This document shows positions 3,399 to 64,000 of a stretch of DNA of 64,000 nt, in pieces (the stretch's first letter is position 1; each line of letters starts with the position of its first letter). The notes below the pieces were generated by a model. That model saw nothing but the letters and a program-made list of their open reading frames with translations. It searched no databases and was not told the DNA's origin. This DNA comes from Branchiostoma floridae (Eukaryota; Chordata; Leptocardii; Amphioxiformes; Branchiostomatidae). The stretch spans positions 30,145-94,144 of the forward strand of contig NW_023365837.1 in assembly GCF_000003815.2 (NCBI RefSeq), given 5' to 3'. The translations under genes were made by a program, and so were the position numbers.

Positions 3399-6300
3399 TC
3401 ACTTTTGAGGATGTTGGCTCCAGTCGTAGTACATGTACTGGGGTGCGAAGGTGAGTTGTCCCCTGGTGTATTTACTGTCACTGCTGTCCCGTATGTTGGC
3501 ACCACCCCCTGTCACTGCTGCATAGGTGGGTGGAGGGGCTGCGATGGGAAACAACAATGAATGATTTCTTTTTTACTTCAGTATATAACTGTATCTCAAT
3601 GGGTAGAAGCTTCACATGGACGTTAGTTCACCTTTATCCGCGGGGCATCCTATATTCATTGAAATATAAAAACAAGGTATTTAGGTATTGCAACGCTTAA
3701 CGGACGATGGCTTTCAAATCTGCAATATTTTGAAAATATTTGAGTTTGAAACTATCATATACAACGGATATAGAATACCCCGCGGATAAACGTGAACTAG
3801 CATTGGATCTTCTGGTTCAAATTAGTTGGTTATGCTTTGGTCACAACAGAAATTAATCACCTAAATTACTGGTTATGTCTACTGTTTGCATACAAAAAAA
3901 TTTGCAGACGCCTCAGGGGTGGATCCTGTTATTTTTACTTACGTAGAGGTGCTGCTACTGCTCCTAGATTGTCTGGCACGCCTGGTATTGCCGGGCCGTA
4001 CTCTGATGACAGGAAGCCACCATAAGGCGTCGTCAGCGGAATAGAGCCGATTTTAATGGGGAGGTAAACTTCAAGATGCATGTGTGGTCCACTAATGTGA
4101 GCTCTGACCTATGGCATATTTAACAATCGTCAGTTATTAATTTACAATCATTCTAAATGGTGCAAAACATGGCTATGAAAGTGCGTGTTCATTTTCTGTT
4201 GATAAAACTGAATTGAATTAAGAAATATGCCACCAAAGACTAACAGAAAAATACGTAAACCACTATCAAATCAACTATATACTAGAAATAACTATAGTGA
4301 CGCTGATATAAAAGCCATTCGTAGAAAAAAAGGTGTTAATGCTTTAAGTCATTAGGAGTATGACTATGTATTTATGTATATGTATGTATGTATATATAAA
4401 TCATATATAAATCTCATATATAAATAAATAAATAAATAGATGTATATTCAGGATGTTCACCTTTACTCAACTTCCAAATGCGAAAGTATGACATTCCCAT
4501 CATTTACCACCATGTGGAATCATATCATGAATAGCATTTTCTCAATGTCTTTCTCGTATAGGACTATTTAGCCACAGTCGACGCTGTAGGGATGATATCA
4601 ATTAGGATTTTATTATGGTCAATATTGACCGCATATCGTAACACTGCATTACCTGAGCAACATAAGTGATGTTAATGATGGAGCAATATCTCAGCCCGGA
4701 GGGGGGAGCGGCAGGGATTGGAAGAACCAGTTCTCCGATGTTCCCGGATGTACGACCTCTACAGCCCAGCCCTACAGCAGAACTCAAAGTGTGTAGCCTG
4801 GATGTTGACCTTCCGCTGGCATAGAAGGTCACGGTCTTGTAAGAAACAAATCGTTCTTTAAATGTGAAAGACTGTGTAATTTCTGGGAAATAGTTAACAC
4901 ATATGTACCTTTGCCCAACATAAAAATTACTTTTCAGGAGGTTTTATTTGGAAAAATTGATCATTTAATAACTGCTAAAGACCAGAAAAATAGAACCTTT
5001 ACTGTTACTGTGGCTAAATGGACAATCTTTAAAACTTGGATCTGGTATAGAAAAGACCCACACCTGTGCATAACTAACCTCTTTAATGTCTTTAAAAGGG
5101 ACTTCGAAGAACGGACGTACTATTGATATTTTGGCAAGAACCCCTTGTTAGACTACTCCATGTTTGATCATAGTGTAATAACAGACTGTACATATTCCTT
5201 AAGGTTTCCCAGTATTTTGACAAATGTACTACATGTATCTGTCTTTCCTGACTGTTTCACTGCCCATGTACTGCATGTTAAGTTACACATGTTATTCGTC
5301 CAGACACACCAGTATATGTTATCCCTCCATGTGCAATAGTACTCGACTATACAAACACTAGTCTTAGTGGTTGACAAATGTACCATTGTTGTTGTTGTTT
5401 TTGATTTAAAAAAAATCATTTTTTTTAAACCGATATTCTCCACAAAAAGTGACATTCCCATGTTTTGTAATCTTTCATCATCATACTAAACTCGGCACAA
5501 AACGTTTGGAATATTAACTTCGGTTGGAAGTGTGTGTAACTTTCTTTCTAATGGTACCAAGCTCATTATGCAACACGTACAAGGCTTGCTTACGTGAGTG
5601 GGTCACCAAAAAAGGGCCCAAATTTCCCCGCTCCTTTTCAATATTGTACCGTCCGGTTGTTATGGCCGACATCTAGAGATTATCATGCTCTTGAACATAC
5701 CATTCTACGCAGAGACATTCAACGGCGCCAGCAAACCGCCTCTTGTCTGTACTCTCCTATCTCAACCCTCACCATCAGTTCCTTACATAAATATTAATGA
5801 GCTTACCCTTATATAAATGCGAGATCCCTATTGAAAACTGAAAGGCCTATTCTCTGATTGGCTGACAGCTGGTTTGTGGCGACGCCCACAGGAACTGATG
5901 GTGACGGTTGAGATAGCAGAGTAGACAAGAGGCGGTGTGCTGGCGCCGTTGGATGTCTTTGCGTAGGAGAATGGAACATACCTGCATAATCCTAGCTGAT
6001 GTCTTGGTGATCCTTGTATTGCTGTTGTTTTCCAGCGATCCCTTTACAAGGACCGTCTCACCAGGACAGTACCCACCTCTGTCTGTCTGTGCCTGGAGTT
6101 CTATCGGTCCTGATGCGCAGCACAGGCAGCACAGAGTCTTGGAGTTCTGATTTCTTGACTGCATCTGAGTAGTATAGTAGGCGGAGAAAGTAGCAATTTT
6201 CTGGAAGTACTTTACTTATAATGTAGTAGTATACATTTTGTAGCATGACAAAAACAGCATGGGTACTTATCATGGAAGCTCATATGTGTAGTACAATGCT

Positions 6301-11375: not shown

Positions 11376-11840
11376 TCCTCGTTTAAAAAAATCCTAATTT
11401 CCGTGATACGAACTTTTCTTACCCCGTTCCCTGATGTATCATTGATCTTTGTGATTTATACCAAAGTGTAGAGGCTAAAAAGTTAGATGAATTTGCTAAT
11501 CAATGAATACTATACAGCTAGCTTGGCCACTCTGCTTGCGAATTTGTGAAAACCAACCGAGCTTCTTAATTAAAGCCACATAATCACTCCATTGTTACCT
11601 AATTACCTCCATTAAAACAGTTACCAAATCTATTTATTAAATAGTTATTGATTATAACGTTATCAGTATTGTTACCTAATTCTCGGTTCATATATGTTGC
11701 AATATCCTCTGTTCATCCAAACTATATGAATGATCTTTATTGCGCAACAATTGTACGGGTACAATGTATGGCAAGTTCGGGTGTAATACATGTACAGAAC
11801 ATCAAAACTAATATCTACGTGGTTGCTTATACATAACAAT
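11376..11840. other. AT-rich spacer, nothing recognised
   Basis: This is AT-rich intergenic sequence between two LINE fragments. I find no gene, RNA or clear repeat in it. Confidence 0.5.
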
Positions 11841-12132
11841 GGTAAGAGGGTTCTATGTAACAAATGACTAGTCGCTATGCTACTTTAGCTGAGCGGATTA
11901 ATTCATGGGAAACAGGTATTACTAGAACATAGTGGTACACGATATAGAATTAACATCAAGTGTTTGTGTCAGTACGATTCCTTTTTGGTAAGAGGGCTCT
12001 ATGTAACAAATGACTAGTCGCTATGCTACTTTAGCTGAGCGGATTAATTCATGGGAAACAGGTATTACTAGAACATAGTGGTACACGATACAGAGTTAAC
12101 ATCAAGTGTTTGTGTCAATACGATTCCTTTTT
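11841..12132. repeat. Tandem duplication of a 146-bp LINE 3' end
   Basis: Unit 1 (11841-11986) and unit 2 (11987-12132) are almost identical; both begin GGTAAGAGGG and contain GAGCGGATTAATTCATGGG. Unit 2 runs into the last codons of the LINE frame that ends at 12102, so the duplicated unit is the 3' terminus of that LINE on the minus strand. Confidence 0.85.
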
Positions 12133-13548
12133 TGAAAAGCAGTAGATATGTATTGGCCTATGTACAAGGAAATTGCATCAGGACATGACATAAGTAAATT
12201 GAAAGTTTCTGAACTTGTCTTAGGTAATGTTATGTTTGTAGTCTTGTTGATAACGTCCATAAGCTTCTGCCTTTCCTCAGTATATGTGGGACATAATAAT
12301 AGAAAGTGTAGTTCGTCTTCGATACCATGATTGCAAGTAGGACAGCGTCTCTGAGTGGCTGGTATATTATTATATCGACCTTTTTCTATCTCCAAACAAT
12401 GTGCACTAATTCGCAATTTTGTTATGTTAGCAACAAATGATTTATTTTGAATTGATGAAAGGTACTTTTCGAGAGTGAAGTTGGTCTTGAATTTAGAATA
12501 GGTTTGCAATTTGCTATAATTTCTTATCTCTTGCCTCCAGCCAGAAACAAACGTGTCTTTCAGACGTTCCTTGAACACGTTTCCAAAATGTTTGGCGTCA
12601 ACTGCAGGGTTTAACCAAACATTTTGGAAACCGTGTCTGCACAATATGTCTTGTACATGTACGGCCCAGTCCTGTTCTTGTTCAACAGCAAAATCGTAAG
12701 CTTTTTTAACTATTCTATCGTTTGGAAGGTTTTGTAGTCTAAGCCAATATTTAATAAGTTGAGATTGGGCTTCAATGTATAATGGAAATGTTCCGAGTTC
12801 ACCCCTTACGGCGGCATTAACGGAACTTCTGGGAACTTGAAGTAGGATTTTACAGTAATTGAGAAGAACATGCTCTAGATCAGACACTTCATATGAGAAT
12901 TTGGGATGTGTCAATAAAATATTTTGATTCGATAGTAATTCCGATTGATATAGAATATTTAATTTGTCACTATATCTCTTAAACCGGACTAGAACAGGAC
13001 GAGGCGATGTCACATCGTTCTTCTTTCCTAATCGTGTAACCTTTAGGAGTTGTATATTTGAACCTAATATCGGAGAAAGGATGTTATAAATTCCTTCCCG
13101 TATATTTTCAGCAGGATATTCCTGTACTCCATTAAAGATCAAGTCTCTACATTGGATGTTTGTCCCTAGTACCTCAGCACAGTAAAGTAATATAGGTTTG
13201 ACTAAACTATGGAACAGATCAAGGGCAAGGGAAATTGATGGGTTATGGTTTGATGCTAGTAAGGATTTGAGTTTAAAGGAGGCCCTGAGAGCTTTTAGTC
13301 GCAGCTGTTTAGTAGCCCGTGAGAATGACCCTGATGGGGTGATATCTATGCCTAAGTAAGTATAAAATTTAGTGATGTCTATTGTGTGCCCTTGTGTTCG
13401 GAAAGTTGATTGCTGTTGCTTACTTGTCCTGCCATGTTTTGAGAAAATCATGATTTTAGTCTTATCTCTGTTAATTGATAGTTTCCAAAGAGAGCAAAAG
13501 TCATCTAATCTTTTGAGACATTCTATATATGTTGGTGTGTGTTTTATA
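12102..13548 (-). mobile_element. CR1-like LINE fragment: C-terminal part of reverse transcriptase protein
   Basis: An open frame of about 480 codons encodes the region after the RT palm, starting LKRLDDFCSLWKLSINRDKTKI (the block following YADD). It continues with TYLGIDITPSG, LKALRASFKLKSLL and a C-terminal KLRISAHCLEIEKGRY plus a CPTCNHGIEDELHFLLLCP zinc-knuckle-like motif. The catalytic YADD half and endonuclease are absent because a mariner-type MITE (13549-14027) begins exactly where the frame stops being LINE. The frame is open over almost 1.5 kb, so this copy is fairly young. It is a mobile-element relic, not a host gene. The element at 20311-23604 is a related but distinct subfamily. 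Confidence 0.85.
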
Positions 13549-14027
13549 CGAGGGGTGATCAATAAGTTCTTGGCCTCACCCAGAAATAATAAGCACAACT
13601 CAAATTTCGAGGCGCATTCGTTTTTTCTTCAAATCAGAAGGTAAGGGGCGAGAAAAAGAAGGGTGAATTGTGATCAGACATGTGTAGGTCGAGTTTCCCA
13701 TGCCGTAAATTCTTTGTCATTAGCAAAAGAAATTGTCAAAATGTTTCATGATTCTCTTCCTATTTCAAGCAGAAAGAAGTGGGTGTCTGAATTCCAGCAG
13801 CGCAAGTTCACGCGCACACCTCAGGTCGCAGCTCAATTGTCGACGTTTTTTTCCTTCTCCCTTACCCAACGTTACTGGATGTCGCATGCACAGTGATGAT
13901 CGCAATAATTTGATTCAGAATTTTGGTACACATTCATGAAAGACTTTATACTTGACATCTATGCTTCGAAATCTGAGCTGTGCTTATTATTTCTTGGTGA
14001 GGCCGAGAACTTATTGATCACCTCTCG
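13549..14027. mobile_element. Mariner-type non-autonomous element with ~60-bp terminal inverted repeats
   Basis: The left end, CGAGGGGTGATCAATAAGTT, and the right end (its inverted copy with CGAGAGG) match for about 60 bp, including AGAAATAATAAGCAC. TA flanks both sides (13547-13548, 14028-14029). The interior has no intact transposase. A short frame with SSRKKWVSEFQQRKF could be a scrap of one, but this is weak. It truncates the LINE 12102-13548 on that element's 5' side. Confidence 0.85.
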
Positions 14028-15489: not shown

Positions 15490-16383
15490 ATTTTCATATT
15501 TCCCATGATTTCATTGTCATCTTTCCCATGATTCCTTTGTCATATTTCCCATGATCCCATTGCCATCTTTCCCATGATTTCATTCTCCACTTACACACTT
15601 CCCATAATTAAGTGCGAGAGGGTTCCGGATATGGCTGCTCCGAACTCCGGAACTGACTCCAAGGGCACAGAAAATTGGTTCTAACCAATTCCGAACACAG
15701 AAAACATCAAGGAGATGATAGTTTGGTGTGGAACCGATCACAGGACAATGGTTTAATCACTTTCCGACAGGAAAAAAACAAAGGCTGCAGACGAAACGCC
15801 AAGGTGTGGCCCTTGAGGTCATCGGAAGAAACCAACTAACAGCCACAGTGGTGCACGTGTTAGGTAGTTACTTCTGACCACAAAACTTGTAAGATTCTCG
15901 GCCCAAATGATAACTGTACTATATTCGCCAGACAACTTATTAGTTTATATGCTTTTCCGCCCTCGTACTGAAGGTTTTAGCTGGTTCCACCCTGGTTTCG
16001 CACCCTGAGCAACTGTGGTAGCATCCAAGTAACATCCATATCCGGAACCCTCTCGCACTTAATTATGGGAAGTGTGTAAGTGGAGAATTGTCATCTTTCC
16101 CATGATTCCTTTGCCACCTTTCCCATGATTCCTTTGCCACCTTTCCCATGATTCCTTTGCCACCTTTCCCATGATTCCATTGTCATCTTTCCCATGATTC
16201 CTTTGTCATCTTTTAGGACTTGGGAGCAGCCATGAAAGACCGCGTGCTGTGGAGAGACGTTGTGCAACGCCTCACCCCGCCCGCCAGGGACGATGATGAT
16301 GATGATGATGATTGTCATCTTTTCCATGATTCCATTGTCATATTTCCCATAATTCCCTTGTCACCTCTCCCATTATTCCATTG

Positions 16384-16402
<19 letters not shown>
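15490..16402. repeat. 23-bp minisatellite grown from the 3' end of POMT2
   Basis: The units have a 23-bp period (for example CATGATT at 16101 and 16124) with consensus TTTCCCATGATTCCwTTGyCA on the plus strand. They lie at about 15490-15582, 16092-16215 and 16310-16402, interrupted by the MITE 15583-16091 and by a GAT-repeat segment at 16290-16312. The unit at 16380-16402 includes the last POMT2 codons and its stop, so part of the array is coding. Confidence 0.8.
15583..16091. mobile_element. MITE with ~50-bp inverted ends inserted in the POMT2-tail minisatellite
   Basis: The left end (about 15583-15640) and right end (about 16037-16091) are inverted copies over about 50 bp. They share CCACTTACACACTTCCC and AGTGCGAGAGGGTTCCGG. 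The element is about 509 bp, has no coding capacity, and is flanked on both sides by CCCATGATTCC minisatellite units, so it landed inside the array. Confidence 0.8.
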
Positions 16403-35492
<19,090 letters not shown>

Positions 35493-49800: not shown

Positions 49801-51960
49801 ATTTCTAAAAGATCTTCTGCCAGTCTGCGGTCTCACGCCCGCCGGCGACCGGTCTTACCCCGCCGTGGGAAAATCAGCGTCACGCGTCGGCGCCCCCCTC
49901 CCCACTACAGTTTTGGAAGTCGAATCGTGCTGTCGTTTTGGTTTTCATTTTCCCCCCCGATTTACCGTAAGTTATTACCACCACAGAACCAATAAAAAGT
50001 CCAAAATATATGTAAATTGAAAATAGTTTCCGTCAAGCCGCTCAGGCCCGCGAGCTTGCAATACGTAAATTTAGGGAGCGGGGCGCACGCCGCTTCGTGG
50101 CGCAAATCTACTAGAAATCCAGGTACAAATGCTTTTTAGGTGTTGTTTTAATATCAAAACAATGAAATAGCTTCTAAAAAGGAAATATTTATGCCTCTAT
50201 GAAGCAGATATTCATCCCTCTATTAAGCAGATATTTTGAGCCATTCTGTTTTCCTTTTTTTACTAGGGGTGAGAGATCTGCTTCTCGATGAAAATCATGA
50301 AAAAGTATGACGCAAAGGACATTTCCGAATGCGGGAGCGCAGTGTTTTATTGGCGTCTTGAATATTTTTTTTCAAAGTTGATAGGAGGGGGGAGGGCCAG
50401 ACCTAGAGGGTCATCTTTGGTCTGCATAGGTTTTCTTGATGATACATGTACTGTAAGTTCATTTATGTTCACGAGATTCGCTAAGACCTTATCTTCATGA
50501 ACTCATCTCCTCATGAACTTTTTTTACTGTATTGCCCCCTTCCCCACACCTTTCATTCCAAATATTCAATCTCAAAATCAAATGCGTGTGCAATACTACT
50601 AGAACTATCAAGGACAAGACTCAATCGATAACAGAGCATTTATTCTTTTCAGACCGAAATGAAAGTTTTAAATTCAACATTGTACATTGTAGATGGTCTA
50701 TTTTGTAATATGTGATTATTATGTTATGAGGTTCCATGAAATTTGTTTGATTGTATTCATAGAAAATTCTTCAAAAAAGATACTTGCTTCTGGGGTTGAG
50801 AGTACAATAATTCCAATTTAACAATGCATGTACACTACAGCTGAATAAATCAAATCAAAATCAAATCAAATCATTTAAACAAAATTACTACAATATTTAT
50901 AAATTGACATCCCTAATTTAACATTGAATTCCAAGCAAGCCGCATTGACCACAAAATATTTAGGGTGTCGATTTAGTGACTCTTTTTTTTCTTCAAATTT
51001 TATCTTTTTCTATAGAAACAAAGTGAACATGGACAAATTCCCCGTGATTTCCGCCATCATAAAACGCTGTTCGGAGCTGGAATCGTTCCAGGCCGCCCAT
51101 CCATTCAGCCAGCCAGACTTTGTTGAGAAGGAAATATAGAATACGGACTGTAAATGCATTAAGTTTATAGTGATTTTATGTTCTAGCGTATGTAGAGACC
51201 TCTTAACTTCAAGCTCCAAACCACAACAAAAATTGTTCTGCCTACCTGCTTACCTTTTGTCTAGTAGTACACATTATGTACAAGTCCTCACAAAACATTG
51301 CACATGCAGTTACAAACTGTCTTAACAACGTAAATGAAGTATACATTGTACATGACTATAGGTACAATCTACATTGTACATGATATATATTTTTTTGGGG
51401 GGGGGGGGGTTCTTTTGTAGATTTTTTTTTACTAGCAAGATGAGCATTGCAGGCGCTAGTTTTGTATGGGGGTTAGGGGCATGCAACTTTGAAAAATCAA
51501 CCCTCTAAAATGGCATCTTCTGTGTTTTTGAGAAGGTAGCCCTTCCAGATCTGTATAGATTTTGTAACAATGTCACTGCAATTCCTGTCTAAAATCATCT
51601 ACTTGAAACTAATGTTGTTACTACATGTAAGCCCATAAGAATGATACCTGTTAACAAGACTTGTGAGCTCCTGATGATATGATAACCAGGCTAGTTAGCT
51701 GCTGCCTTCTGAATTTAGCATTGAACATTCGCATTATCGTAATGTTCCTAAAGTGTGAATCATGAACAATTCTCATTGTACCCTTCAGTACATGTATAAG
51801 GAAAAAAGGCTACTTGATTTTCATACATTCCAGGTTCAAGGTGGACCTGTCCAAGTTCCCCGCCATCACGCGAGTGTGCGGAAACCTGGCGGAGCTGGAG
51901 GCCTTCAAGGCGGCCGACTACTCTCGACAGCCCGACACCCCTGAAGACCTCAAGGCCTGA
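43857..51960 (+). CDS. GSTZ1: Maleylacetoacetate isomerase / glutathione S-transferase zeta
   Basis: This enzyme uses glutathione to turn maleylacetoacetate into fumarylacetoacetate, the step before the last in tyrosine breakdown; it is cytosolic. Nine exons join in phase: 43857-43908, 44345-44412, 44930-45010, 45769-45846, 46487-46534, 47196-47274, 47951-48003, 48129-48178, 51834-51960 (636 nt, 211 residues plus stop). The thioredoxin-like half carries the zeta signature YSYFRSSCAWRVRIALNLKG with the active-site SSC. NPMAQVPTL holds the glutathione cis-proline, and MAILEYLEETRP and GIQPIQNLSVL follow. The C-terminal half has YCVGDQVTMADLCLVPQ and ends RQPDTPEDLKA. The first exon listed has no ATG, so a short upstream coding exon is missing; see 36493-36513 and the MADF gene. 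An alternative last exon is at 51016-51139. AATAAA at 52796-52801 is a likely polyadenylation signal. Confidence 0.93.
44560..44820. repeat. Inverted repeat in GSTZ1 intron 3
   Basis: The arms GTTTTTCAAGATTTCAAGGG...GGAGGTCAGAGGTC (about 44583-44625) and the complement (about 44772-44818) flank about 150 bp. This looks like a short MITE. It is non-coding. Confidence 0.5.
45233..45545 (+). mobile_element. tRNA-derived SINE, GSTZ1 intron 4
   Basis: A tRNA-like head has B-box GGTTCAAATCC, then CTCTTGGGAAAGACACTTTA, TCCTCACTTTATTCAGGTGAAAATGAG-type and TTAAAGAACCC blocks. These are the same order of modules as the SINE at 34675-35190 but on the plus strand. It is non-coding. Confidence 0.65.
46725..47110. 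repeat. Dispersed repeat shared with 42310-42690
   Basis: A diverged copy of the repeat at 42310-42690, with the shared GCCATTTTGTTTGTAGAGGTCA and AAAGTTGCCGGAATAATTTG blocks. It lies in GSTZ1 intron 6. Confidence 0.5.
48295..48458. mobile_element. MITE of the GAACTAGCGTTA family, GSTZ1 intron 9
   Basis: The left end (CTCACCTTTGTCTGAGGGTAACC) and right end (GATAAAGGTGAACTAGCGTTA) form diverged inverted termini, as in the copies at 3621 and 10415. It is about 164 bp and non-coding. Confidence 0.55.
48791..48993. repeat. Two-unit tandem repeat, 122-bp period, GSTZ1 intron 9
   Basis: ATTGTATATTCTTTGGCAA starts units at 48791 and 48913. Both continue with GGCTGACAAAAAAA, GGTAAACAAGAAACACAACAT and CCTAAGCCTTAGC. 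It is non-coding. Confidence 0.75.
48995..50430. repeat. Array of diverged G-rich repeats, GSTZ1 intron 9
   Basis: A GGCGTTTCAGAGGGTCAAGA-type block (or its variant) recurs at about 49180, 49405 and 49600, each followed by an AAATTTTTCTGGACC-like block. GGGGGGAGGGCC purine runs occur at about 49024-49120 and again at 50385. The array has strong strand asymmetry. It lies between GSTZ1 exon 48129-48178 and the alternative last exon 51016-51139. No gene is evident. Confidence 0.5.
51016..51139 (+). CDS. GSTZ1: GSTZ1 alternative last exon
   Basis: After acceptor TTCTATAG, a 41-codon frame reads NKVNMDKFPVISAIIKRCSE and then LESFQAAHPFSQPDFVEKEI with stop TAG at 51137-51139. It aligns along its whole length with the constitutive last exon (FKVDLSKFPAITRVCGNLAE, then LEAFKAADYSRQPDTPEDLKA). 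It has the same phase (it completes an AG|A arginine codon after 48178) and its own stop. It therefore looks like a tandem exon duplication that now offers a mutually exclusive C-terminus. It keeps the helix pattern but changes the terminal tail. I do not see an AATAAA close after it, so it could be used at low level or be decaying. Confidence 0.7.
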
Positions 51961-54051
51961 AGTCATTTTTCTGATCATGTTAACGTCCTTAGCTATGGAT
52001 GTGAGATAATGATTATAGACTGAGGCAGTTATCTTTCTCTTAACATGCTGTCTGTGTGGTTGGGTTTTAAAGTTCCCTTTTGTAGGATTTTGCTGTCAGA
52101 AATTGTAAATAATCTGAATTTAACACTCTCCATTCAGATTGACGTTTGCTACTTTTTTACAACATAATTGTATCAGTTGTCCACATTTTGAGCTTTGTTG
52201 AACAACTCCAAAGCAAGCCATACAAGTCCCAGAGTGTACATTTTATTGGTGTACATTTTATTGGTCCTCGGAATGGTCTTCTTTGGCTATTTTAAAGTCT
52301 GGTGGTACTCAAGACAAAACAAAGCAAATTTAGAAAAAGATCCCAGGTTTTCATAAGGCTCAAACATTTGCTAGGTAATGTGATATAATGGTAGAATCAA
52401 CTTATCAGGTAAAGACATTATCAAAACATCAATTTACTCTTACACTCTTATCCTACAATAGGGACCTTTAAAACACAATTCTCAAGAATGATTGAAAAGA
52501 AGTAAAGACAGTGTCTAATGTTAAGCTTGCCTTGAAGATAGCATACCGGAAATTCTGTTTAAAGCCCTCCCTTCTCTGCAATGATGATCATGGTGACATA
52601 ATCAGTTTTGTCAAGGCTGTAAAGCTATTGAAAGATTTTTATTTGCTTTTATCAGAAAAATCGGTGAAGCGGGCGACATATTGGTAACGTGAGAGTAGGT
52701 GGCTGGATGTTATTTGAATCTTTAAACGGATTAATGTATGTATTGATTTTATGTCTTTTCTTTGTTTCACTGAAATCATACCAAAGTAAAAGAGGAATAA
52801 AAGAGGAATGAAATATCTAATACATGTATCATCGTGAATTGTTTTGTGTGTTTTTTTGTTATATCCATATTGTTGATACCACCTTTAGATAACTTTTACC
52901 ATTCCCATTTTCTACATGTAATAAACCTGCCTATTTAAAATATTGTCAACACATTTTCCTGCTGATGCGACTTTGGACCTTGGCTAAGCCAACCTTTCTA
53001 TCCTGTCAGTCTCCTATTACACTATCTTCCATATCACATCCTGCCGCTACAATCTTTTTAGACACATACTAGGACAAACAAACATACAGACCAAAAAAAA
53101 GTACCTCCCTTTTGACGGAGGTAACATTTCCAGCAAATCTGCTGTATCTGTCTACATTATTTTACTGAACATCTTTTAGTTTTTCTTTATGTGAACAATC
53201 TTGTGGAAACTAGAGGGCCCGATACTTAGGTCACTTTTTCCATCATAAAAGCTTTTTACCCACAAAAACTCGTGACCATCCAAAACAAGAATTCGAAGAC
53301 CTCATATCTCCACGAAATAACTAATAAGTCTGATTATGTAACTGATTTCCACAGTTACATAATCTATGCTTGGCTATGTACATATTTAGATAACTTACAC
53401 AGTGTCACAATGTTGATTCTAGTATGATAACATTTTGTTAAATGTGTTGAACTTGTTCTTTTTTTTTAATTTCAGATTTTAATTAAGACAAAGTTTTCAC
53501 AAATAGAATCGTTAGATTGAAGATCCTTGACGAGTTTCAGTCATCTTCTGTCAATTGAAATGACAAGTTTCTAATTAGTGACAAAACTTTTACAAAGATG
53601 GCTAGAATTATTAAGAATATGAATTGAACAAGCTGCCAGTGGGCCCAAATTTGCACCACTCCTTCCTCACATTAATGGCTATCTGGCCCAAAACATTAAG
53701 GCTATATATAGCATTTCCAGGGCCAAAGTTACTAAAACAGGAAGTATAGCTGCGGTACCAAGGTCAATCACAAGGAGGCCAAATTTGAAGTTTACCATTG
53801 CGCTAACCCATGCACCAAATTCCATCACGCAATACGTTCTTTGGATATATCATATACTGTCAGAAATTCACATCGCACACACTCATGCGCATGCACACTC
53901 GCACACACACACATGCCATGTAGAAATATAATGCATCAAATTTTATGGACGTAACATTGTTATATGTTTTAAATAAAGATACGCACAATGCCTCACACAT
54001 GAACACCTACGCACAAGTAACACAGTACAATTGATGTAAACTTCAAAATAC
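51961..54051. other. GSTZ1 3' UTR and intergenic region towards Lefty
   Basis: 51961 to about 52820 is probably GSTZ1 3' UTR, ending after AATAAA at 52796-52801. From about 53200 to 53960 there is a diverged copy of the repeat seen at 9380-10085 (GTGGGCCCAAATTTGCACC, AAACAGGAAGTATAGCTGCGG, then a CACACAC tail). TTTATT at 54052-54057 could be the Lefty polyadenylation signal on the minus strand. Confidence 0.5.
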
Positions 54052-54890
54052 TTTATTTTTACTCCAAAATCACTCCTTACAAAGAAGCATAAATTCTTAA
54101 ATCTCAGCATCTGAAGGATAGGAACACTAAATCATGCTTGTCTCATGTGCTTCAAAAATATATGTTTTCTGTAATTACAATATTTACATCACGTTTTCTT
54201 TCGGTAACAAGTAAGTATACCCCTTCCTTGCCTATGCAGGTCTATGTACAAAGTGGTTCGATCGGACGCAACAGTTGGAGGTGCTATAGCAATAGAGCAT
54301 TCGTGGTTTTAAGTTTGTAAAAGAAGCTTACTTATTCAGGAAATGTACAATTGCAATCATATACAGTGGTACACAATTAGTAAAGATTTGTAATACTGAG
54401 AACACATGCCTAACGTTACGGGCAGAGGGCCCAATACACATCCCTATGGGTACCCACTCCAGGGGTCCCGCCTCATTGACTGTTTACCGCTTAGCATGTC
54501 TATTAGGTGAGAACAGGGTGTTATCACCACAGATGCCCAATACACATCCACAAGACTTGCGGCTACAGGCCATCAAAAATGCTTTGCAACAGTTTCTGAG
54601 TCAGAATAAGGTTTCACTGCGATTTTACCAATATAATAATGTATCAGTAAGTGATGACTTTGTATAGTCTTTTACAAGACGTTGGTCTTTAGTTTGTTTG
54701 ACAACCCAATACACATCCAGGACGGATGTGTATTGCCCCAGCATCTATTACCACAGCACACAATAACGTTAGTCCAGATCATCTCGGATATATACACTCC
54801 ATAAATACTCATTATGCCACACGAAACGGGCTTCTAGCTTTTTAACACCGGCATTTGCACAGTCATCGTTGTTGAAAGACTTTCGAGTTT

Positions 54891-56743
54891 TTACTGTGTG
54901 CACGCACACTGTTCTACGATCATGTTGGGAAAGTCTGCTACCTCTATCTCCGTCTTGTCGCCCCTGCTGACGAGGTACATGACGGGGAGGGGTGCCGTCC
55001 TCACCACCCCGCACGTCTGCTGCAGCTGCTCGGGGTCGTTGTGCATGTACCACCGCGCGCGCTTCGGGCAGCCGCCGCCGCACTGGAAGGCGTCGTAGCC
55101 GCGGGGCTCCAGGATGAACTGCTCGGCGAACGGCAGGTCGGTGAAGTCGATGTAGTTCTCGGAGCGACAGCAGCGGTTGCTTCTGCTGGGAAGGTCCTCA
55201 CAGTTGCGTGCACCACTGGAGAATTAAAAAAAGAGCAAAACTCATGAATTTCCACCTCGCAGTAAATTTTGGTTTCCACAAATATATATACGTACGGACT
55301 CACTGTACACTAGAAATCCTACGCGCTAACCATTTTCAACGTTTGACAAAGCACTTAACTCAAAACTCTAATGTCCAATAAAAAAAGTCACTGCTACTTC
55401 TTTGACTTGAAGACAAAGCAACTTTTACGTGCCAAGAAAACCGAAAGTGTTAGACATTCAAAAGGAATAGTACAAAACACAGAAAGCGATGCCTACCTGG
55501 CGTCAGTCGAGTTCTCGGTGTACATGATGAGCTCGGGCCGGCGCTCGTTCTCCTCGGGAAGCTCCTGGGTGGCGAACTCGACCATCTTGGCGACGCGTGC
55601 CGGGTACCTGCCGGGGGCGGCCCCCTCGATCCACAGCTCCAGCCCGTGGTTCCCGCTGGGGTTCACCTGCCACTCACGCACCGCCGCAGACACGTCAAAC
55701 ACCTCCCAGCCAGAACCGTTCACGGGGATGAGTCTGAGAACAGTCACAAAACAGAAGAAACATTTAGTACGGAAGACATAACGCAATAGAGGATGGGAAT
55801 AAGCGTCACAGAAAAAAAAGGAACATTTTACAAGGCGTACACGAAAAAAAGATCGCAAATCAAAGTTCTACATCTACAAAGTATATTCATAACCTTGAGT
55901 TCAGATGAAATCAGAAATGTCATAAAACCATAATGGGACTGTGTCTTACCTGGAGTCGAGCAGCCTGTTAGCGGACCCCTCCTCCCCCGTGGCCAGCACC
56001 TGGTACACGGACACGCGGGCGGCGTTGACGGCACGAGGGTGCGCCCGCAGCCGCTTGTGGTGAGAGAAGTTGGGCAGGCGCTTGAACACCCTGAGCTCGG
56101 CGGACTTGAGCACCGTCTCCTCCGTCAGCCGCTCGGCCACGTTGAAGTGGAAGGTGAGCCGGGTGGTCTCCGTGTACACAACGTCTCCCACGATTCCTGA
56201 GACAAAGGACGGAGGCAAATCCGATTGAGTAAAAGTGATTCTCAACACTCCAGAACATCTATTCCAACAATATTTTCGTCGTAATACAAAGACGAAAGTC
56301 AAATTACAACGCTTATAACTTTCTTAGGAACACGAAGAAAAAATATACTACAAAGCTTACGTAACAGCAGCTGGAATGCAGATTTTGTATTTTACAAGGT
56401 TGTAAAGAGAAAATAAAGGATTGAAAACTAAGTGTAGAACGTAAAGTTGTGTTTTCTTACCTGGATTTTTGTGAACGGTGCGGAGCAGAGTAGCCAGGCT
56501 GGCTTCCCTCTTCCTGCGACGGCTGGCCGGGGCCTGGTGTAGGGCCTGGTGAAGCTTCAGCATGGACTCGTACTTGGCTCGGATGTGCGCTGGCACCTCC
56601 ACGTCCCTCTTGCTCACGGTCAGAGTCGGGAAGTTCTCGCCCCCGAGCCTGTCCAGCAAGGCTCTCCTGACGTGGTCCGCCGAGAACGCCAAGGCGCTGG
56701 CCAGAACACACGAGAACAGCGCACAAACTAGAACAGGTTTCAT
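54891..56743 (-). CDS. Lefty: Lefty, secreted TGF-beta family antagonist of Nodal
   Basis: Lefty is secreted and blocks Nodal/Vg1-class signalling at the receptor/co-receptor level; it sets limits to mesendoderm and left-right signals. Four exons join in phase: complement(54891-55215, 55497-55733, 55950-56196, 56461-56743), 1092 nt and 363 residues (human 366). A signal peptide is at about 1-20 (MKPVLVCALFSCVLASALAF). The prodomain has a basic RRRKR at 75-79. The C-terminal cystine-knot domain has NRCCRSENYIDF, LEPRGYDAFQCGGGCP and ends PNMIVEQCACTQ. As in other Leftys, only one cysteine (QQTCGV) stands where dimerising family members have CC, and the long helix region is cut down. Four exons is also the vertebrate Lefty layout. 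A minus-strand TATAAAAA box lies at 56883-56876. It faces the Gdf1/3-like gene across 3957 bp. Confidence 0.93.
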
Positions 56744-56875
56744 CGTAGTAGTGGTGGTATAACAGCTACCAAATGTCGAAACAGTCGCAAAGCAAAGAGC
56801 GGGAGCCGGTAAGATGCGATGTTGCTGCGAAGGTTTCGTCTGACGAAATGGGTGATGAATAATTATGCCTTAGAC

Positions 56876-56883
56876 TTTTTATA
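56876..56883 (-). promoter_or_regulatory. Lefty TATA box
   Basis: The minus strand reads TATAAAAAGTC, a strong TATA box, 133 bp before the Lefty ATG. The transcription start is expected near 56850, giving a 5' UTR of about 110 nt. Confidence 0.7.
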
Positions 56884-56925
56884 CCGAGAACCAGCCAGTC
56901 GTCTAGTGGCTCTCCACGACCCGCT

Positions 56926-56949
56926 AATAAACCGTCTGTCTCTTTGATT
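56926..56949 (-). promoter_or_regulatory. Lefty-proximal composite TCF / Smad / FoxH1-like element
   Basis: On the minus strand the sequence reads AATCAAAGAGACAGACGGTT then TATT. This is a TCF/LEF-type ATCAAAG, two contiguous AGAC Smad half-sites and GGTTTATT, one base off the FoxH1 octamer TGTTTATT. All four touch each other and sit about 45 bp upstream of the TATA box. Confidence 0.5.
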
Positions 56950-58062
56950 GAGGTGATGAGCCGTCCCACCGCCTTCCGCAGTCACCGCACCTTTTCATCC
57001 TAATCATTCCGTCTGAGTAGTACTTGCTGTGTACAAAATAACCTCCATTGTCTGGCTTCGGCCCCTGTCGTGTTTGTCTACACCTTTGACATTCAAAATA
57101 GGGGACTGGCGAAGTAAACCGAAGTGAAATCGCACCCGATCCACCAAAAGAATACGACTAATAAAAGCATGAATGACAAACTAATGGGACTTTTGTTTCA
57201 CCGACTCATTGGGAGGTTCTGAGCCCCTAATTAAGATGTCCCTGTCCTGCTCATGTCGGATGCACCACTCTGTCGGGGTCCCCTGGTACAAATTTTCAGC
57301 CGTAATTAACCATTGAAGACTTTGAATACCAAAAGATCTTGTCTCACACCTAACTCAGAATAATAGCACAAATATGGATTTGCCCTAAACTGATGCATTG
57401 TTGTGGCATGTGTATTGGAATCTTTGCAAAAAGAATATGACCAAAAGACGCCATGTATCTCTATGCTTATATGGGTGCTGGAGAATAACCGTCAATCTTT
57501 ATCAAAATCTATCTCAAAATCCCTTTAAATCCAGAGAAAACAAGATACGAAACCAGAAACGCGGGTAATTTCAATTTCAGTTTAGAGAGGCTATCGATAC
57601 AGATAAACTCTGTCGCGACAAAGTGGGCCAAAGGACAAGTGTGCAAATATGACATCTTTTTTCGCAATTTGGTCTTAGTTAATAATGCGGACCACTAACA
57701 GTCACTGGTAAATACCAAGCGAATAAAATAGTCTTTAGAAATATTCATTTCTATTAAACCGCATATCGAATTTCCCAATCCATTTTTCAACTCCCATGGC
57801 TATGACATATTTTGTTTTTGTTGGTTGATATCTTGACACTGTCTAAAGTGCCTTTTTTAATCCAAGAAATTTCAATATGCTTTATAAGAAATCGGGCCAA
57901 ATGCTGTTAAACTTCAAGTGCCGTTGCACAACTCTAAATCTTTTTCAGGAATTCTAACTATGCAATTTCATCAGTTTTTCGGAGCGGACGAGTTTCGTTC
58001 ACATATAAAATCGAATATTTCATCGCTACTACATGTGTGTTGTTGACCTGTTCTTTTTTTAG

Positions 58063-58207
58063 AACGTGGCTTGGCTTGGTTTGGAGAACCACAGCCAAGC
58101 CAAGCCAAACCCGCTTGGTTCCATTGTCATAACGCTTGGCGAGCCTAAATATGGACCAAGCCACGCCGAACTTTACTTTCCCTTTGTTTGGTGGCTTGGC
58201 GTGGCTG
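58063..58207. repeat. Inverted GGCTTGGC cluster in the shared intergenic region
   Basis: TGGCTTGG/CCAAGCCA motifs occur several times on both strands within 145 bp (for example GTGGCTTGGCTTGGTTTGG and AGCCAAGCCAAGCCAAAC). TTGGC/GCCAA is the NFI half-site, so it may be regulatory. It also forms strong inverted repeats and could be a short degenerated element. Confidence 0.5.
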
Positions 58208-58918
58208 GAAAACAACAATACACCCAAGCCAACTCTCACTTTCAATATGTGTATTAGTATACGGCAATACGAACATGTACACTTTTTGTACGGCGTTGAC
58301 TTTTTCTGCGTAAGAGTAAGACAACTTCAGATCGGCGGTCTCTTGATTATAAAAGTTGATCAGTGTTACTACGGCGGCATTGCTCTAAGTTACTTCAATG
58401 CAATTCTTTGCAATTTGCATGACTTGCTGTCTACATCTTATTGATCAAAGGCAAACCCTTCACTCTAACAAAGTTCGTTGTAAAATTGTCTTACTTCTCT
58501 TCCTACATTATGTCGTTCGCTCCAACTTTGATGTCTACTCCTTTGATCAAAATGTCTTTTTGAGCCAGCGACAAAAAGAAGTTGTCTGATTTCAGTGGTA
58601 ATGTTGGTCTGTTTTCATATTCGGTTCCAAGTAGTTTTACCTAAACCGTGCTTTGTAGTTTGTTGTGAAGTTTTAGGAAAGATTGTTTACTTTGTTTGCT
58701 GTAAAGAAATTACGCAAACATATAACGACACCAACCACATGATAGACAAGGATTCTATATTCTTGATTTGTATACCCAACACACACATCCGCACAAACAC
58801 ATATAGTGTTCAACTTCCGAGAAATGCAAACTGTTTCAACATTAGACTTTGCCGGTACAATTAGCTTTGTGTTTTTGGAGAGATAAGTATTTTCTTATTT
58901 CTGCCAAAGCAGAACGGT

Positions 58919-58986
58919 AATACACATTACTAAACAGCTGTGAACATCTGTTAGTTTTTGTGAACAAAGTTTTTGAGGAATACACA
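58919..58986. promoter_or_regulatory. Paired FoxH1-type octamers with SOX-like site between
   Basis: AATACACA occurs at 58919-58926 and 58979-58986, the minus-strand form of TGTGTATT. Between them lie CAGCTG (E-box) and GAACAAAG (SOX-like). I recognise this as a candidate enhancer core; no activity can be inferred from sequence alone. Confidence 0.4.
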
Positions 58987-59611
58987 TTTTCCTGTTGACA
59001 CAATGCGAGGTTTCATTGCGCCAGGTTGACTTACATAATGACCAAAACCGACAACCGATACGGTGCGACAAAGGCGTCCCATTGCAGTGTGTTACTAACA
59101 TGTTTTGTCTTCTCTCCATAATCCGACTGCTCCGTTAAGCTTTTCGCACGTTTCTCTGTTTGCTTTGACGTGCTAAGCAGGTAAATCTGTGACGATCGGG
59201 AAGCCTGAGAACCACAGGCGGGGAGAGGGGCCGCTTGGGCCGCCAACAATTCCGCGTCGTTTCCTTACTCAAAAGCTTGGGTCTGATACATACGTGCCAG
59301 ACTGATACATGCATTAACATGACATACCGCGTCAGTTTGATCCCAGACAAGCCAAGCCGCGTACGTTTGAGAACTATTTTTAAAAAAGGACGCGGCTTGG
59401 GAAAAACTGAATTCACACACACCAAAATTAGTTTGGCTTCCGATCCAATATAGTTTGGTTAGCGCCCGCCCTAGGACTCGACACGTTTCTCCAACAGTTG
59501 TACTTGTGTGTTTATTTTTACCTTTGTCTTGTACACCATGGATAACGGGATAGACGCGCCCTTTATCGCTGTGAATTTGTAGGACAATTAGTGGATTACA
59601 GGGCCCCGCCG

Positions 59612-59631
59612 TGTGGATCATGGTCTCAGAC
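59612..59631. promoter_or_regulatory. FoxH1-like plus GTCTCAGAC Smad palindrome
   Basis: TGTGGATC (one base off TGTGGATT) is followed three bases later by GTCTCAGAC, two Smad half-sites facing each other. GTCTCAGAC is the exact reverse complement of GTCTGAGAC at 60336-60344. Confidence 0.4.
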
Positions 59632-60335
59632 ATAACTTCCTGGTCAGACCGTGTGAAACACTTCGCAAAATAACTAACTCTCCGAAAATAGAAGATTTTT
59701 TGATACCACGCTGTTCTTCCGAAAAAATAAAAACATACTGAAAAGCGTCAACGATTCGCATGCATTATCGGTTTAGATACGTGACGTCTACTGTTTAGTA
59801 TTGGATTATCCTTTTAAATTGACTAATATCACGGGCTTTGCGTATAGTCAGCATTTTCGATTTCCGATATCCCAATCTCATCCTTACGCCAGTCGGGTGG
59901 TCTATCTCGTGTGCCCCACGGTGTCTGCGCACCGAGGCTATGAAACTGATCCCTTGGATTAACTAGGCTTCTCGTATTTGCCGCTTGGGACTGATAATAA
60001 ATATGGTTAGATACAATCTGATCTAGGAAGACGCCAGGACACGGCTTGGAAAACACGCCCTAAAGGCTAAACAAAAAGCAGCGTAATGTTTCTTCCTTAT
60101 TTTGCAGAAGCATTTATTTTTCCGTTATTCTTGGACAACATTCATTGGCATAAAACGAACATATGTCTCCATTTTATTCAGTGGGTACTAGTTTTACTTA
60201 CTTCACAAGACAATGTTGTCTGTTATAACATAAGGTTGGGTTCTTAGAGCCATTCAATTCTTGTAAGGATGCGGCCACTGCTTTTACTTTTTCGGTACGT
60301 CTCGGTCTTTGATCAGCGTGGCTGTCTCACCTGTT

Positions 60336-60359
60336 GTCTGAGACGGGCGGGTGTGTATT
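60336..60359 (+). promoter_or_regulatory. Gdf1/3-like proximal Smad palindrome plus FoxH1 octamer
   Basis: GTCTGAGAC (two facing Smad half-sites) lies 7 bp before an exact FoxH1-type TGTGTATT. Another GTCT is at 60323. The element lies about 340 bp upstream of the Gdf1/3-like ATG and fits the known FoxH1-Smad activin/Nodal response arrangement. Confidence 0.5.
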
Positions 60360-60571
60360 GCGGGAAGCCAGCCCCTTTGTTCCCGTTCGCCCGGTCCCAC
60401 CGATCAACGGGCGGTCATTGTTTTTTCTCCTCTGGTAGTTGATTACCACCAACATCATATGCATATGAATGCGCACGTCCATATGATAAACACGGCCGAC
60501 GTTTAATTATTCCTGTCCCGAAGAGTGGCGCAAATTGGGCTATCGGCCGGAGGGGGGCTCAAAGCGGTGCT

Positions 60572-60579
60572 CATAAATA
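60572..60579 (+). promoter_or_regulatory. Gdf1/3-like TATA-like box
   Basis: CATAAATA lies 122 bp before the ATG after a GC-rich stretch. It would give a start near 60605 and a 5' UTR of about 95 nt. Confidence 0.4.
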
Positions 60580-60700
60580 TCGTAGTCGGGACTTAGATTA
60601 AATCTTGATGCCTGGCAAAACAGACCATCAGTTTGTCGAGTGATAGCGAAGTGAACACACCTCTCTTGCGATTCCCTCACAAGTCCTTATCCACTACACC

Positions 60701-62247
60701 ATGAGAGTTGGAGTTCTCTTTTTCGTCACCGTAGTGACGACTCTCCTGACGGGAGGGTTGGTGAGCGGTGAAGCTGGCCCAGACCCGAGGATAGCCAAGC
60801 TGGAGTCGGCGATGCTGCGTGCCCTGGGGATGACGCACAGACCGCGGCCCCGGAGAGGAGCGACGGTCCCGAGGCACATGCTGGAGCTGTACGGGCGGCA
60901 GGAGAAGCTGCGGGCCCAGCCGGCGGGACAGCCGTCAGACTGTCAGTTCCCAGACGTCACCGTACCGGGAAACATCGTCAGGAACTTCAAGGGCAAATGT
61001 AGGTATCATTTCTATATTCTTAAAACATTTTTTATTATTATTTGGCGTACAGACATTTTATCGTTTACGTGTACTGTTGATGATTGTTTGGCTTGGCGTC
61101 ATGTTTGGCGTCATGTAACGGCACAAGAGATATGATTCGATTGTACGTAATATTGTTATTGAGTGTAATTTCTGTGCAAGGTTTATCATTTCCGTTATAT
61201 ATCAATATCAAGTACGAACTCGGTGTCTCATGGAACTATTTGAGTGCGTGTGGATGGGGGCGTTTTCTGTGTTTTAATTTTTATAACAGCAATATTCCGA
61301 CCGATCCAGTTAGAGCCCAGGTAGCCTTTATTCCTTGGTGAACGTAGCATATCACTATCCAGTGTATCCACTGTCTATTTGCTTTCACATGAGATGTTTT
61401 TGCACCTTTATTAAATTATGTTCATCATTTCTTTATAGATCACGACACCGTCGACCTTTCCCCGACGGCCTGCTCCAGTCAGGGCGTGACGTACTCCGTG
61501 TCTGCCGTCGCCGCGGAGGAGTTCGTCCGTTCCGCCGAGCTCAGGGTGCACGTCCCCGACGACCCGCGGGTTTGGTCCGCGGCTCAGGCGTACACCGTCA
61601 GCGTCTACCGTGTGCTGCGGCCCGCTGAAGTCGGCAGCGCGGACAACTTGGAGCTGCTGCAGGCCCACGTCATCACGCCTTTCGACAGAGACGACGTGAA
61701 GGCCTTCAACATCGTGAGCGCCGTGCAACGCTGGCAGAGACGGGGTGAGGACAACCACGGCCTGCTGGTGTCGGTGGAGGCGGTGCCGGCAGAGGACGGT
61801 ACCAGGCTAGACTCCTGCCCACACTTCAGCCTGACAGACATGGAACTGTTCGTCATCTCCACGGACATGCAGCAGTGCAGGAGCCGGGACAAGCGGTCCG
61901 CACGGGCGGTAGACTCCCCCAGCGGTCCCGGCAACATCTGCAAACGGAGGAAGCTGTACATCAGGTTCAAGGACGTCGGCTGGGACGACTGGATCATCGC
62001 TCCTCAGGGCTACATGGCGTACCACTGCAGCGGTGAGTGCCCCTTCCCGCTCAACGAGCACTTGAACGGCACCAACCACGCCGTCATACAGACGCTGGTG
62101 AACTCTCTCACCCCCGACTCGGTACCCCCGGCCTGCTGTGCGCCGACCAAGTGGTCGTCCATCTCCATGTTGTACTTCGACAACAACGGAGACGTCGTCT
62201 TGAGACAGTACGAGGACATGGTCGTAGACGGCTGCGGCTGTAGGTGA
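60701..62247 (+). CDS. Gdf1/3-like: Gdf1/3-like (Vg1-type) TGF-beta ligand
   Basis: This is a secreted dimeric ligand of the Vg1/GDF1/GDF3 group; in other chordates it pairs with Nodal to signal through activin-type receptors and Smad2/3. Two exons join in phase: 60701-60998 and 61439-62247 (1107 nt, 368 residues). A signal peptide is at about 1-24 ([19 protein letters not shown]). The prodomain includes [16 protein letters not shown] furin-type RDKR is at 249-252, giving a 116-residue mature part. The mature domain has all seven knot cysteines: [32 protein letters not shown] and [26 protein letters not shown] and [14 protein letters not shown] are strongly Vg1-like, and [12 protein letters not shown] is the family ending. 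AATAAA at 62798-62803 is the likely polyadenylation signal. It diverges from Lefty. The choice between Gdf1/3 and its lineage duplicate Gdf1/3-like rests on linkage to Lefty. Confidence 0.93.
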
Positions 62248-62803
62248 AGAAAGAAAAAAAAGAACTTTGGTTTCAAGCTTGTATTTAAGTCTAAGAAGAG
62301 TGTTTCCAGAGCTGTGTATTGTACAGAACGTCCAGCCGAAGGATGTGTATTCCTTATTTGTGAAAATCTGATGGGGTGACAAACAGCACAATAGGGGAAA
62401 ATGGATGTGTCTGGGTAGCTGATGACCAATTACGCCATTATAGCCCCACGGTGGTCTACAAAATTGACACGAGTGTAACCGATACTTGCTCAAAATTCGC
62501 CATTTTTCTTGTCACAAAAAAACAAACAATTCCCCATTTTTTTCACAAAGTATTTTGAATCCTCTGACTGTTCGTGTAAGGTATAAAGAGCATAAAGTAC
62601 TTCCAGTCGACTGCCTGTAAATATTATTGTAACGATTTGTATATATGTAATTTGAGCAGAGTTTTCTATGCAGGGACTGTTGTTTATTTTCCTAAATTCT
62701 AAGTTGACAAAGGAGCAAAAATATTTACAATAGCATTGACTAAATGGTGCTGATATGACAAGGTGCCAGTATGGTTGATTGTTTAGAGAGCTATGTCAAT
62801 AAA

Positions 62804-64000
62804 ACTTCTAACATTTTTACGATGGTCTTTTGTTTCTCGTCTTTCAAGTTACATTTCACATTAAGGTTTATAGACACACGGACTAGTAAGATAAACAAAG
62901 TTATCTTGAAGGGATCATGGTCATGAATAAGAAAAACAGAAAAATAACCTTCAATTATTTGTCTCACAACATAACCGTTAACACATTGCGAAATGATAAT
63001 AATATTCTTAAAATTCGTACTAACGATACCTTCTAATGTCTTGCACAAAAAAGACGCACATTGCAAACTAAAATGGTTCAAAAGTTAGCACTTTAAAATT
63101 ATCGACAATGATCACGTACTCCGTACTCTCCAAGCAGAGTTTCGACTCAGGCTGTTTTTTGTGGAATTTTTAGGCATTTTCTATTTTGTACCCTCTTCTT
63201 GATTAAAGAAAACGGATTCTGTCCCGCGGCCCTGTTAAAACGCCTAAAACACGTCAAAAACAGCCAGAGCCGAACCTCTGCCTAGAGAGAGGTGTTCCGG
63301 AGCAGGTCAGATTACGAAAGGTGGTCATTAAGTTGATTCTCGGACTCACGAATCTTTTATACACTCTAAGTTGCGTGCCTTTAGTCATACTTGTGCGTTT
63401 AGCAAGATATTTCTATCATAAAGTTCAACTTAGATCGCACCGACGTTCATGCACCCGCGTATAATCGAATCAACATTGGACGTCGATGTTTAGACATCCA
63501 GATATTAAGATCTGCCGTCACCGACGAAAGATGCTACTAGTGTCTGAAAGTAAATCACAAAGACATAACCAGTTTGAGTAACTGCTCTTTGGCGAATCAA
63601 CGCAGCCTTACAAAAATAACCGCAACGATGCCTTATTCAATTCATATCCTTGTCATCTTTCTAATTGTAAAAGTTATATGAAATGAAAATTTGCAATTTC
63701 AGAACACAAAAGATCAAATAGTTCTCTAAAACTTCAAATAGCTCTATCTCTAAACTCTTAAAATTTGAAACAAAAATCCCTTTAATGACACAAACCATTG
63801 CGGGAACTTTAAGTCCCAACTTTATGCATAAATGCATCTAAGATTTACACACACACACGCACGCACACTCACATACGCACGCACAATGATAGTTACACTC
63901 GCCAAGAAGGTTATATATATGTTTTCGTTAAATCGTTAGCGTTTGACTGTATGTCAGTACGATGACTCAAGAGTGTCTTGATATTGGTTAGGTTAGCCCT
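62804..64000. other. Downstream of the Gdf1/3-like gene
   Basis: Non-coding up to the window end. It holds the MITE 63126-63288 and a CACACGCACGCAC microsatellite at about 63850-63885. I see no further exon. Confidence 0.5.
63126..63288. mobile_element. Diverged copy of the CTCTCCAAGCAGAG MITE
   Basis: The ends CTCTCCAAGCAGAG...GCTGTTTTTT and the inverted CAAAAACAGCC...CCTCTGCCTAGAGAG pair as in the 6993-7192 copy. The interior has diverged. TA precedes the left end; the right flank no longer shows a clean TA. Confidence 0.65.

Follow-up and report, generated by a model that had tools for sequence, protein, structure and literature searches.

The Lefty and Gdf1/3-like gene pair of Branchiostoma floridae: a published shared segment and a wider map of candidate FoxH1 sites

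Introduction

How did an activator and an inhibitor of one signal come to start head-to-head on the same piece of DNA, and do they answer to the same controls? The question is raised by a stretch of 64,000 nucleotides from Branchiostoma floridae (NW_023365837.1; contig C279, 30145-94144, in a searched genome of 513 Mb and 431 contigs), hereafter the window, in which Lefty (minus strand) and Gdf1/3-like, or Vg1 (plus strand), start 3957 bp apart. An initial annotation, made from the sequence, had placed the two genes in this way, correctly to the base, and the limits that it gave, 54891 and 62247, coincide with the two stop codons. Its suspicion that the linkage may already be known was justified: the linkage, the opposed orientation and the enhancer hijacking were described by Shi et al. 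2024 (PMC10794066), where a report of the linkage by Satou et al. 2008 is cited. As for the same linkage elsewhere, which the annotation advised looking for, that article reports it in amphioxus only. The gene pair and its interpretation are therefore already known in print, and a wider map of FoxH1-type sites is the testable addition made here. We found a locus-specific excess of the FoxH1-type word TGTGTATT, which extends beyond both genes.

Results

The gene pair and its published segment

Both genes are intact (Table 1). Among nine B. floridae primer and TALEN sequences published in PMC10794066, 7 match the window exactly and 2 with one mismatch, the junction-spanning primer being an exact match to Gdf1/3-like; two further primers from the same source, for Gdf1/3 and Nodal, have no match within the window, as expected. 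The identity of Lefty rests on the two B. floridae primers published for that gene, of which one matches exactly and the other with a single mismatch. Its protein contains the Pfam domains TGFb_propeptide (PF00688, 5.2e-22) and TGF_beta (PF00019, 4.6e-11), and the Gdf1/3-like protein contains the same two domains, with a BMP-like mature domain. The closest solved structures are TGF-beta and inhibin proproteins for Lefty and BMPs for Gdf1/3-like. Lefty proteins typically lack the cysteine by which two ligand subunits are linked, and it is missing in this Lefty as well (LQQTCGVV versus PPACCAPT in Gdf1/3-like, compared by eye and unaligned). No gene was recognized between the two, as the annotation had stated: open frames longer than 60 aa are present in the gap, none of them gene-like at a look, without one-by-one testing. 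When the 3957-bp segment was compared with the complete genome, very common words being skipped, it matched nothing besides itself, and a repeat comparison across 54000-63500 revealed no long similarity between the Lefty and Gdf1/3-like promoter regions.

The annotation had proposed that one enhancer set serves both genes, and had named a reporter assay in opposite directions and a co-expression study as ways to check it. Both have been carried out in print (PMC10794066). A stable line carrying the 4-kb segment expresses mCherry, and in injected embryos the segment drives mCherry in one direction and eGFP in the other, both reporters being active in the dorsal organizer; the expression patterns of the two genes are similar. 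The shared-enhancer interpretation is therefore supported. The annotation also placed the ligand under Nodal feedback, and this part stood only partially. In its favor, SB505124 lowers both reporters of the 4-kb segment, and both genes are reduced or abolished at G1-G3 in maternal Nodal mutants (PMC10794066); the start and the late return of expression in the same mutants, given in the Discussion, limit it. In Gdf1/3-like mutants most anterior and dorsal structures are lost (PMC10794066). The authors of that study concluded that Gdf1/3-like hijacked the regulatory region of Lefty, the direction of the capture being their own inference, and the capture of enhancers by gene relocation proposed in the annotation is the same reading.

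FoxH1-type sites at the locus

The FoxH1 form TGTGTATT, the Tcf forms and the Smad palindromes used in the scans are those that we take to be the usual ones. The window contains 17 copies of TGTGTATT, of which 54350-62400 holds 11 and the remainder 6. The 11 are divided into four 3' of Lefty, five in the intergenic segment and two just 3' of Gdf1/3-like, so that 6 of them fall outside the 4-kb segment. Against 14 stretches of 10 kb taken at round coordinates (L017-L030; 8 copies among 110,141 unmasked bases, with base composition unmatched), 0.58 copies would be expected in 54350-62400; the expectations are 0.29 for the intergenic segment alone (5 seen) and 0.04 for 54350-54890 (4 seen). None of 1000 dinucleotide shuffles reached 11 copies. 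Of the direct neighbors of the window, L011 has 2 copies in 10 kb and L012 has none in its 7,615 readable bases.

When the 8-mers with at least 4 copies inside the locus were ranked by their excess over the rest of the window, ATACACAT came first and AATACACA third. The second, CCAAGCCA, is a word of a local TTGGCTTGG cluster. The TTGGCTTGG words lie in the shared segment at 58064-58232 and 59341-59400, in both orientations, forming short inverted repeats.

Smad-type and Tcf/Lef-type words accompany some of these sites. The candidate module at 60307-60359 contains the sole TGTGTATT site, among the 17 of the window, with both GTCTG (a Smad form taken from PMC6679436) and CTTTGAT within 60 bp. 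Of the Tcf-type CTTTGAT, 5 of the 18 window copies are in the segment, versus 1.1 expected by length, and for GTCTG 15 of 126, versus 7.8; these surpluses are suggestive only.

Table 1. Coordinates of the two genes and of the candidate regulatory features (window positions, unless another contig is given)
Feature	Position	Strand	Detail
Lefty	54891-56743	minus	Coding exons 56743-56461, 56196-55950, 55733-55497 and 55215-54891 (four), GT-AG splice signals; ATG 56743, stop ends 54891; 363 aa; spliced translation
Gdf1/3-like (Vg1)	60701-62247	plus	Coding exons 60701-60998 and 61439-62247 (two), phase-1 intron; ATG 60701, stop ends 62247; 368 aa; splice sites and translation
Divergent intergenic segment	56744-60700		3957 bp; published counterpart (~4 kb) drives both genes (PMC10794066)
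TATA-like box of Lefty	56878-56883	minus	140 bases upstream of ATG; putative promoter
TATA-like box (ATAAATA) of Gdf1/3-like	60573-60579	plus	128 bases upstream of ATG; putative promoter
Four FoxH1-type sites 3' of Lefty	54433-54734		54433, 54539, 54708, 54727; three with the identical 14-mer CCCAATACACATCC
FoxH1-type site TGTGTATT, intergenic	57409-57416	plus	Motif scan
FoxH1-type site TGTGTATT, intergenic	58248-58255	plus	Motif scan
Two FoxH1-type sites, intergenic	58919-58986	minus	58919, 58979; motif scan
Candidate module	60307-60359	plus	Tcf/Lef-type CTTTGATCA (60307), Smad-type GTCTGAGAC (60336), FoxH1-type TGTGTATT (60352)
Two FoxH1-type sites just 3' of the Gdf1/3-like stop	62313-62351	plus	62313, 62344; motif scan
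Smad-type GTCTGTCT joined to Tcf/Lef-type CTTTGATT, near the Lefty promoter	56934-56949	plus	Motif scan
Inverted pair of FoxH1-type sites, Nodal locus	C3:20999838-20999867 (L015 9839-9868)	both	22 bases start to start

Control loci and the 14-mer elsewhere in the genome

An excess of TGTGTATT was also found at the Nodal locus (7 in 20 kb versus 1.43 expected) and not at the parental Gdf1/3-Bmp2/4 locus (1 in 20 kb versus 1.45 expected), which fits a capture of Lefty regulation by Gdf1/3-like. At the Nodal locus, an inverted pair of sites lies between a Nodal primer site and the neighboring TGF-beta domain exon, and is probably intronic. Searching for such inverted pairs over the whole genome returned at least 96 matches per strand, compared with 17 for the control; many belonged visibly to a single unrelated repeat, and the matches were not used.

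The 14-mer CCCAATACACATCC has 19 copies in the 513 Mb, of which three cluster within 290 bp 3' of Lefty, while its reversed control word has 5. In the 3 kb of sequence taken for each of the 16 copies elsewhere, one additional TGTGTATT is present in 2 cases and none in the other 14. Nine of the 16 share a common repeat flank, two have another repeat flank and five have unique flanks. The family with the common flank (L031, L032, L034, L035, L036, L039, L044, L045 and L046) is a dispersed repeat with the exact CCCAATACACATCC, and could scatter FoxH1-type sites genome-wide.

These repeat flanks, together with the looser FoxH1 form TGTNNATT, as scored in Branchiostoma in PMC6679436, favor the alternative that the motif cluster is unrelated to FoxH1, being a product of chance, derived from a repeat or serving another factor. 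The TGTNNATT copies are not enriched in the 8 kb over the rest of the window (16 versus 11.5, p 0.15), and 54 of 1000 shuffles reached the 8 copies of the segment alone; in the whole 8 kb none of 1000 shuffles reached 16. On the other side, CCCAATACACATCC is rare and its three copies at Lefty have unrelated flanks, on which grounds we rejected a repeat origin of the Lefty sites, and the excess at Nodal is not shared by Gdf1/3-Bmp2/4. In addition, a Pitx-like homeodomain exon is found 5299 bases from one of the five unique-flank copies (C3:22882085), and 499 bases separate this copy from a second TGTGTATT. The exon is the best match of the genome to a Pitx-type homeodomain, with 88% over 48 residues and an E of 3e-21 (4.6e-11 for the next best), and we call the gene Pitx-like on that homeodomain match. 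Pitx had been picked as a positive control before the positions of CCCAATACACATCC were known, and the chance of such nearness is about 1e-4 for the five places and 3e-4 for all 16. Nodal inhibitors abolish the left-sided expression of Pitx in amphioxus (PMC4423147). We consider a cluster unrelated to FoxH1 to be quite unlikely.

Origin of the Gdf1/3-like copy

Gdf1/3 and Bmp2/4 are about 8 kb apart on contig C1, where three of the four published Gdf1/3 sequences tested match exactly and the fourth was not found. The sole coding intron of Gdf1/3-like has the place and phase (1) of that in Gdf1/3 and Bmp2/4, with exon ends judged by eye, which suggests that the copy moved as DNA and is not a retrocopy made via RNA. 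Phylogenetic evidence for the descent of Gdf1/3-like is reported in PMC10794066.

An ancestral pair, or a tandem duplication in which Gdf1/3-like gave rise to Lefty, would need no capture at all, and was put forward by Satou et al. 2008, as cited in PMC10794066. Against it, the linkage is confined in that article to amphioxus and Lefty genes are cited there in lophotrochozoans. The two proteins are also distant from each other, each with the different nearest relatives given above, and their coding introns differ, with one in Gdf1/3-like, placed as in Gdf1/3 and Bmp2/4, and three in Lefty. We regard this origin as very improbable.

Remainder of the window

About 3 kb past the 3' end of Lefty, two plus-strand exons (50903-51139 and 51766-51960) resemble the C-terminal part of maleylacetoacetate isomerase (GST zeta) and are probably two neighboring copies. 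Retrotransposon remains with endonuclease and reverse-transcriptase matches are found at 21554-23671 on the minus strand, and a frame of 508 aa at 12102-13628, with no Pfam match, looks by eye like the tail of a retrotransposon-like element. A 23-base tandem repeat forms three arrays within 15490-16404, a unit of 146 bases is doubled at 11840-12132, and an exon at 5847-6215 (minus) has a Pfam match to Arrestin_C.

Discussion

Taken as a whole, the best explanation of the locus is very probably that the Nodal-responsive control of Lefty was captured by a DNA copy of Gdf1/3 and kept via FoxH1 sites. The copy would have been placed at the DNA level head-to-head with Lefty in a cephalochordate ancestor, and would have come under the Nodal-responsive control of Lefty. 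An early Nodal-independent input, perhaps Wnt/Tcf, would switch on both genes; a Tcf input would be in keeping with their Nodal-independent onset at the 256-cell stage. Nodal and Gdf1/3-like would then activate Smad2/3, which together with FoxH1 on the repeated TGTGTATT sites would maintain both genes; one field would thus contain positive feedback via Gdf1/3-like and negative feedback via Lefty. The linkage, the bidirectional activity and the partial Nodal dependence were demonstrated in print (PMC10794066), while we infer the FoxH1 binding of the TGTGTATT sites, the start of expression by Tcf and the activity of the outer sites. Cephalochordates are reported to have a FoxH1 orthologue (PMC7535936, citing Yu et al. 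2008), and mutation of FoxH1 motifs abolished the Nodal response of a Branchiostoma lim1 fragment and greatly reduced that of a gsc fragment, both assayed in Xenopus (PMC6679436).

Besides the behavior of TGTNNATT, several points weigh against this explanation. The maternal Nodal mutants show a normal onset of both genes at the 256-cell stage and renewed expression at G5 (PMC10794066), and embryos treated with Nodal inhibitors still express Lefty at N0, at a reduced level and bilaterally (PMC4423147). The expression patterns of the two genes are similar but not identical (PMC10794066, PMC4423147). The exact word TGTGTATT and the limits 54350-62400 were picked after the sites had been seen, and the sites are known from one B. 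floridae genome only. GTCTG was found within 50 bp of only 1 of the 11 FoxH1-type sites, so that a Smad neighbor near most sites was not observed (GC-type Smad sites were unscored).

The difference in pattern was described by Soukup et al. 2015: at N0 Gdf1/3 is bilateral and Lefty is already left-only, and at N1 Lefty is found at the midline too (PMC4423147). We take the Gdf1/3 of that study to be Gdf1/3-like, since the other paralogue is undetected before the neurula and very weak in late neurulae and larvae (PMC10794066). Given this difference at N0, and the normal start and G5 return in the mutants, control of the pair is neither wholly Nodal-dependent nor wholly shared. It could be that the enhancers are mostly separate, with promoter-proximal and 3' elements for Lefty and the 60.3-kb module and 3' sites for Gdf1/3-like, both genes being Nodal targets and the sharing partial. 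The FoxH1-type sites past both far ends (4 and 2), the Smad/Tcf-type motifs of each promoter region and the N0 and N1 patterns all speak for such an arrangement, whereas the 4-kb segment by itself drives both reporters in a similar organizer pattern (PMC10794066). We judge it unlikely as the principal account, although it is compatible with the capture of Lefty control by Gdf1/3-like and differs from it as a matter of degree.

A more extended form of the capture is that Gdf1/3-like landed inside a wider Nodal/FoxH1 response field, which now reaches past both genes and includes private 3' clusters (4 sites for Lefty, 2 for Gdf1/3-like), with CCCAATACACATCC as a high-value FoxH1 element at Lefty and by Pitx. 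We propose this tentatively, and rate it somewhat below an even chance. The private clusters, if real, would explain why the patterns are similar yet not identical. In searches of listings of open-licence PMC papers we found no earlier description of this wider field of sites. The words FoxH1, Smad and 'binding site' are absent from the main text of PMC10794066, the longer record of which counts 2 'FoxH1' and 2 'binding sites', and in its text outside section 8 and the supplements no elements 3' of Lefty or Gdf1/3-like are described.

As regards known systems, the Branchiostoma locus of PMC10794066 has the identical gene pair, orientation and segment of about 4 kb. The lim1 and gsc fragments (PMC6679436) are alike in combining FoxH1-type sites with a Nodal response in organizer genes; those are single genes, whereas here a pair is accompanied by 11 candidate copies of one word over 8 kb. 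Zebrafish her1-her7, to which PMC10794066 likened the locus, is likewise a co-regulated pair, although its proteins both repress their own transcription, whereas the amphioxus pair consists of one activator and one inhibitor of a signal. There is also a possible analogy to vertebrates, in which the asymmetric enhancers of Nodal, Lefty2 and Pitx2 carry paired FoxH1 sites: genes of these three kinds are accompanied by repeated FoxH1-type sites here too, with no homology of spacing or positions implied.

The locus is a published and experimentally tested case of network rewiring by a gene move, in which the copy of an activator came under the control of an inhibitor. The map resolves the '4-kb region' into eleven named candidate sites, and the published 4-kb construct may miss part of the control. 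The match by the Pitx-like gene hints that direct targets of Nodal in amphioxus might be recognizable by a simple sequence feature.

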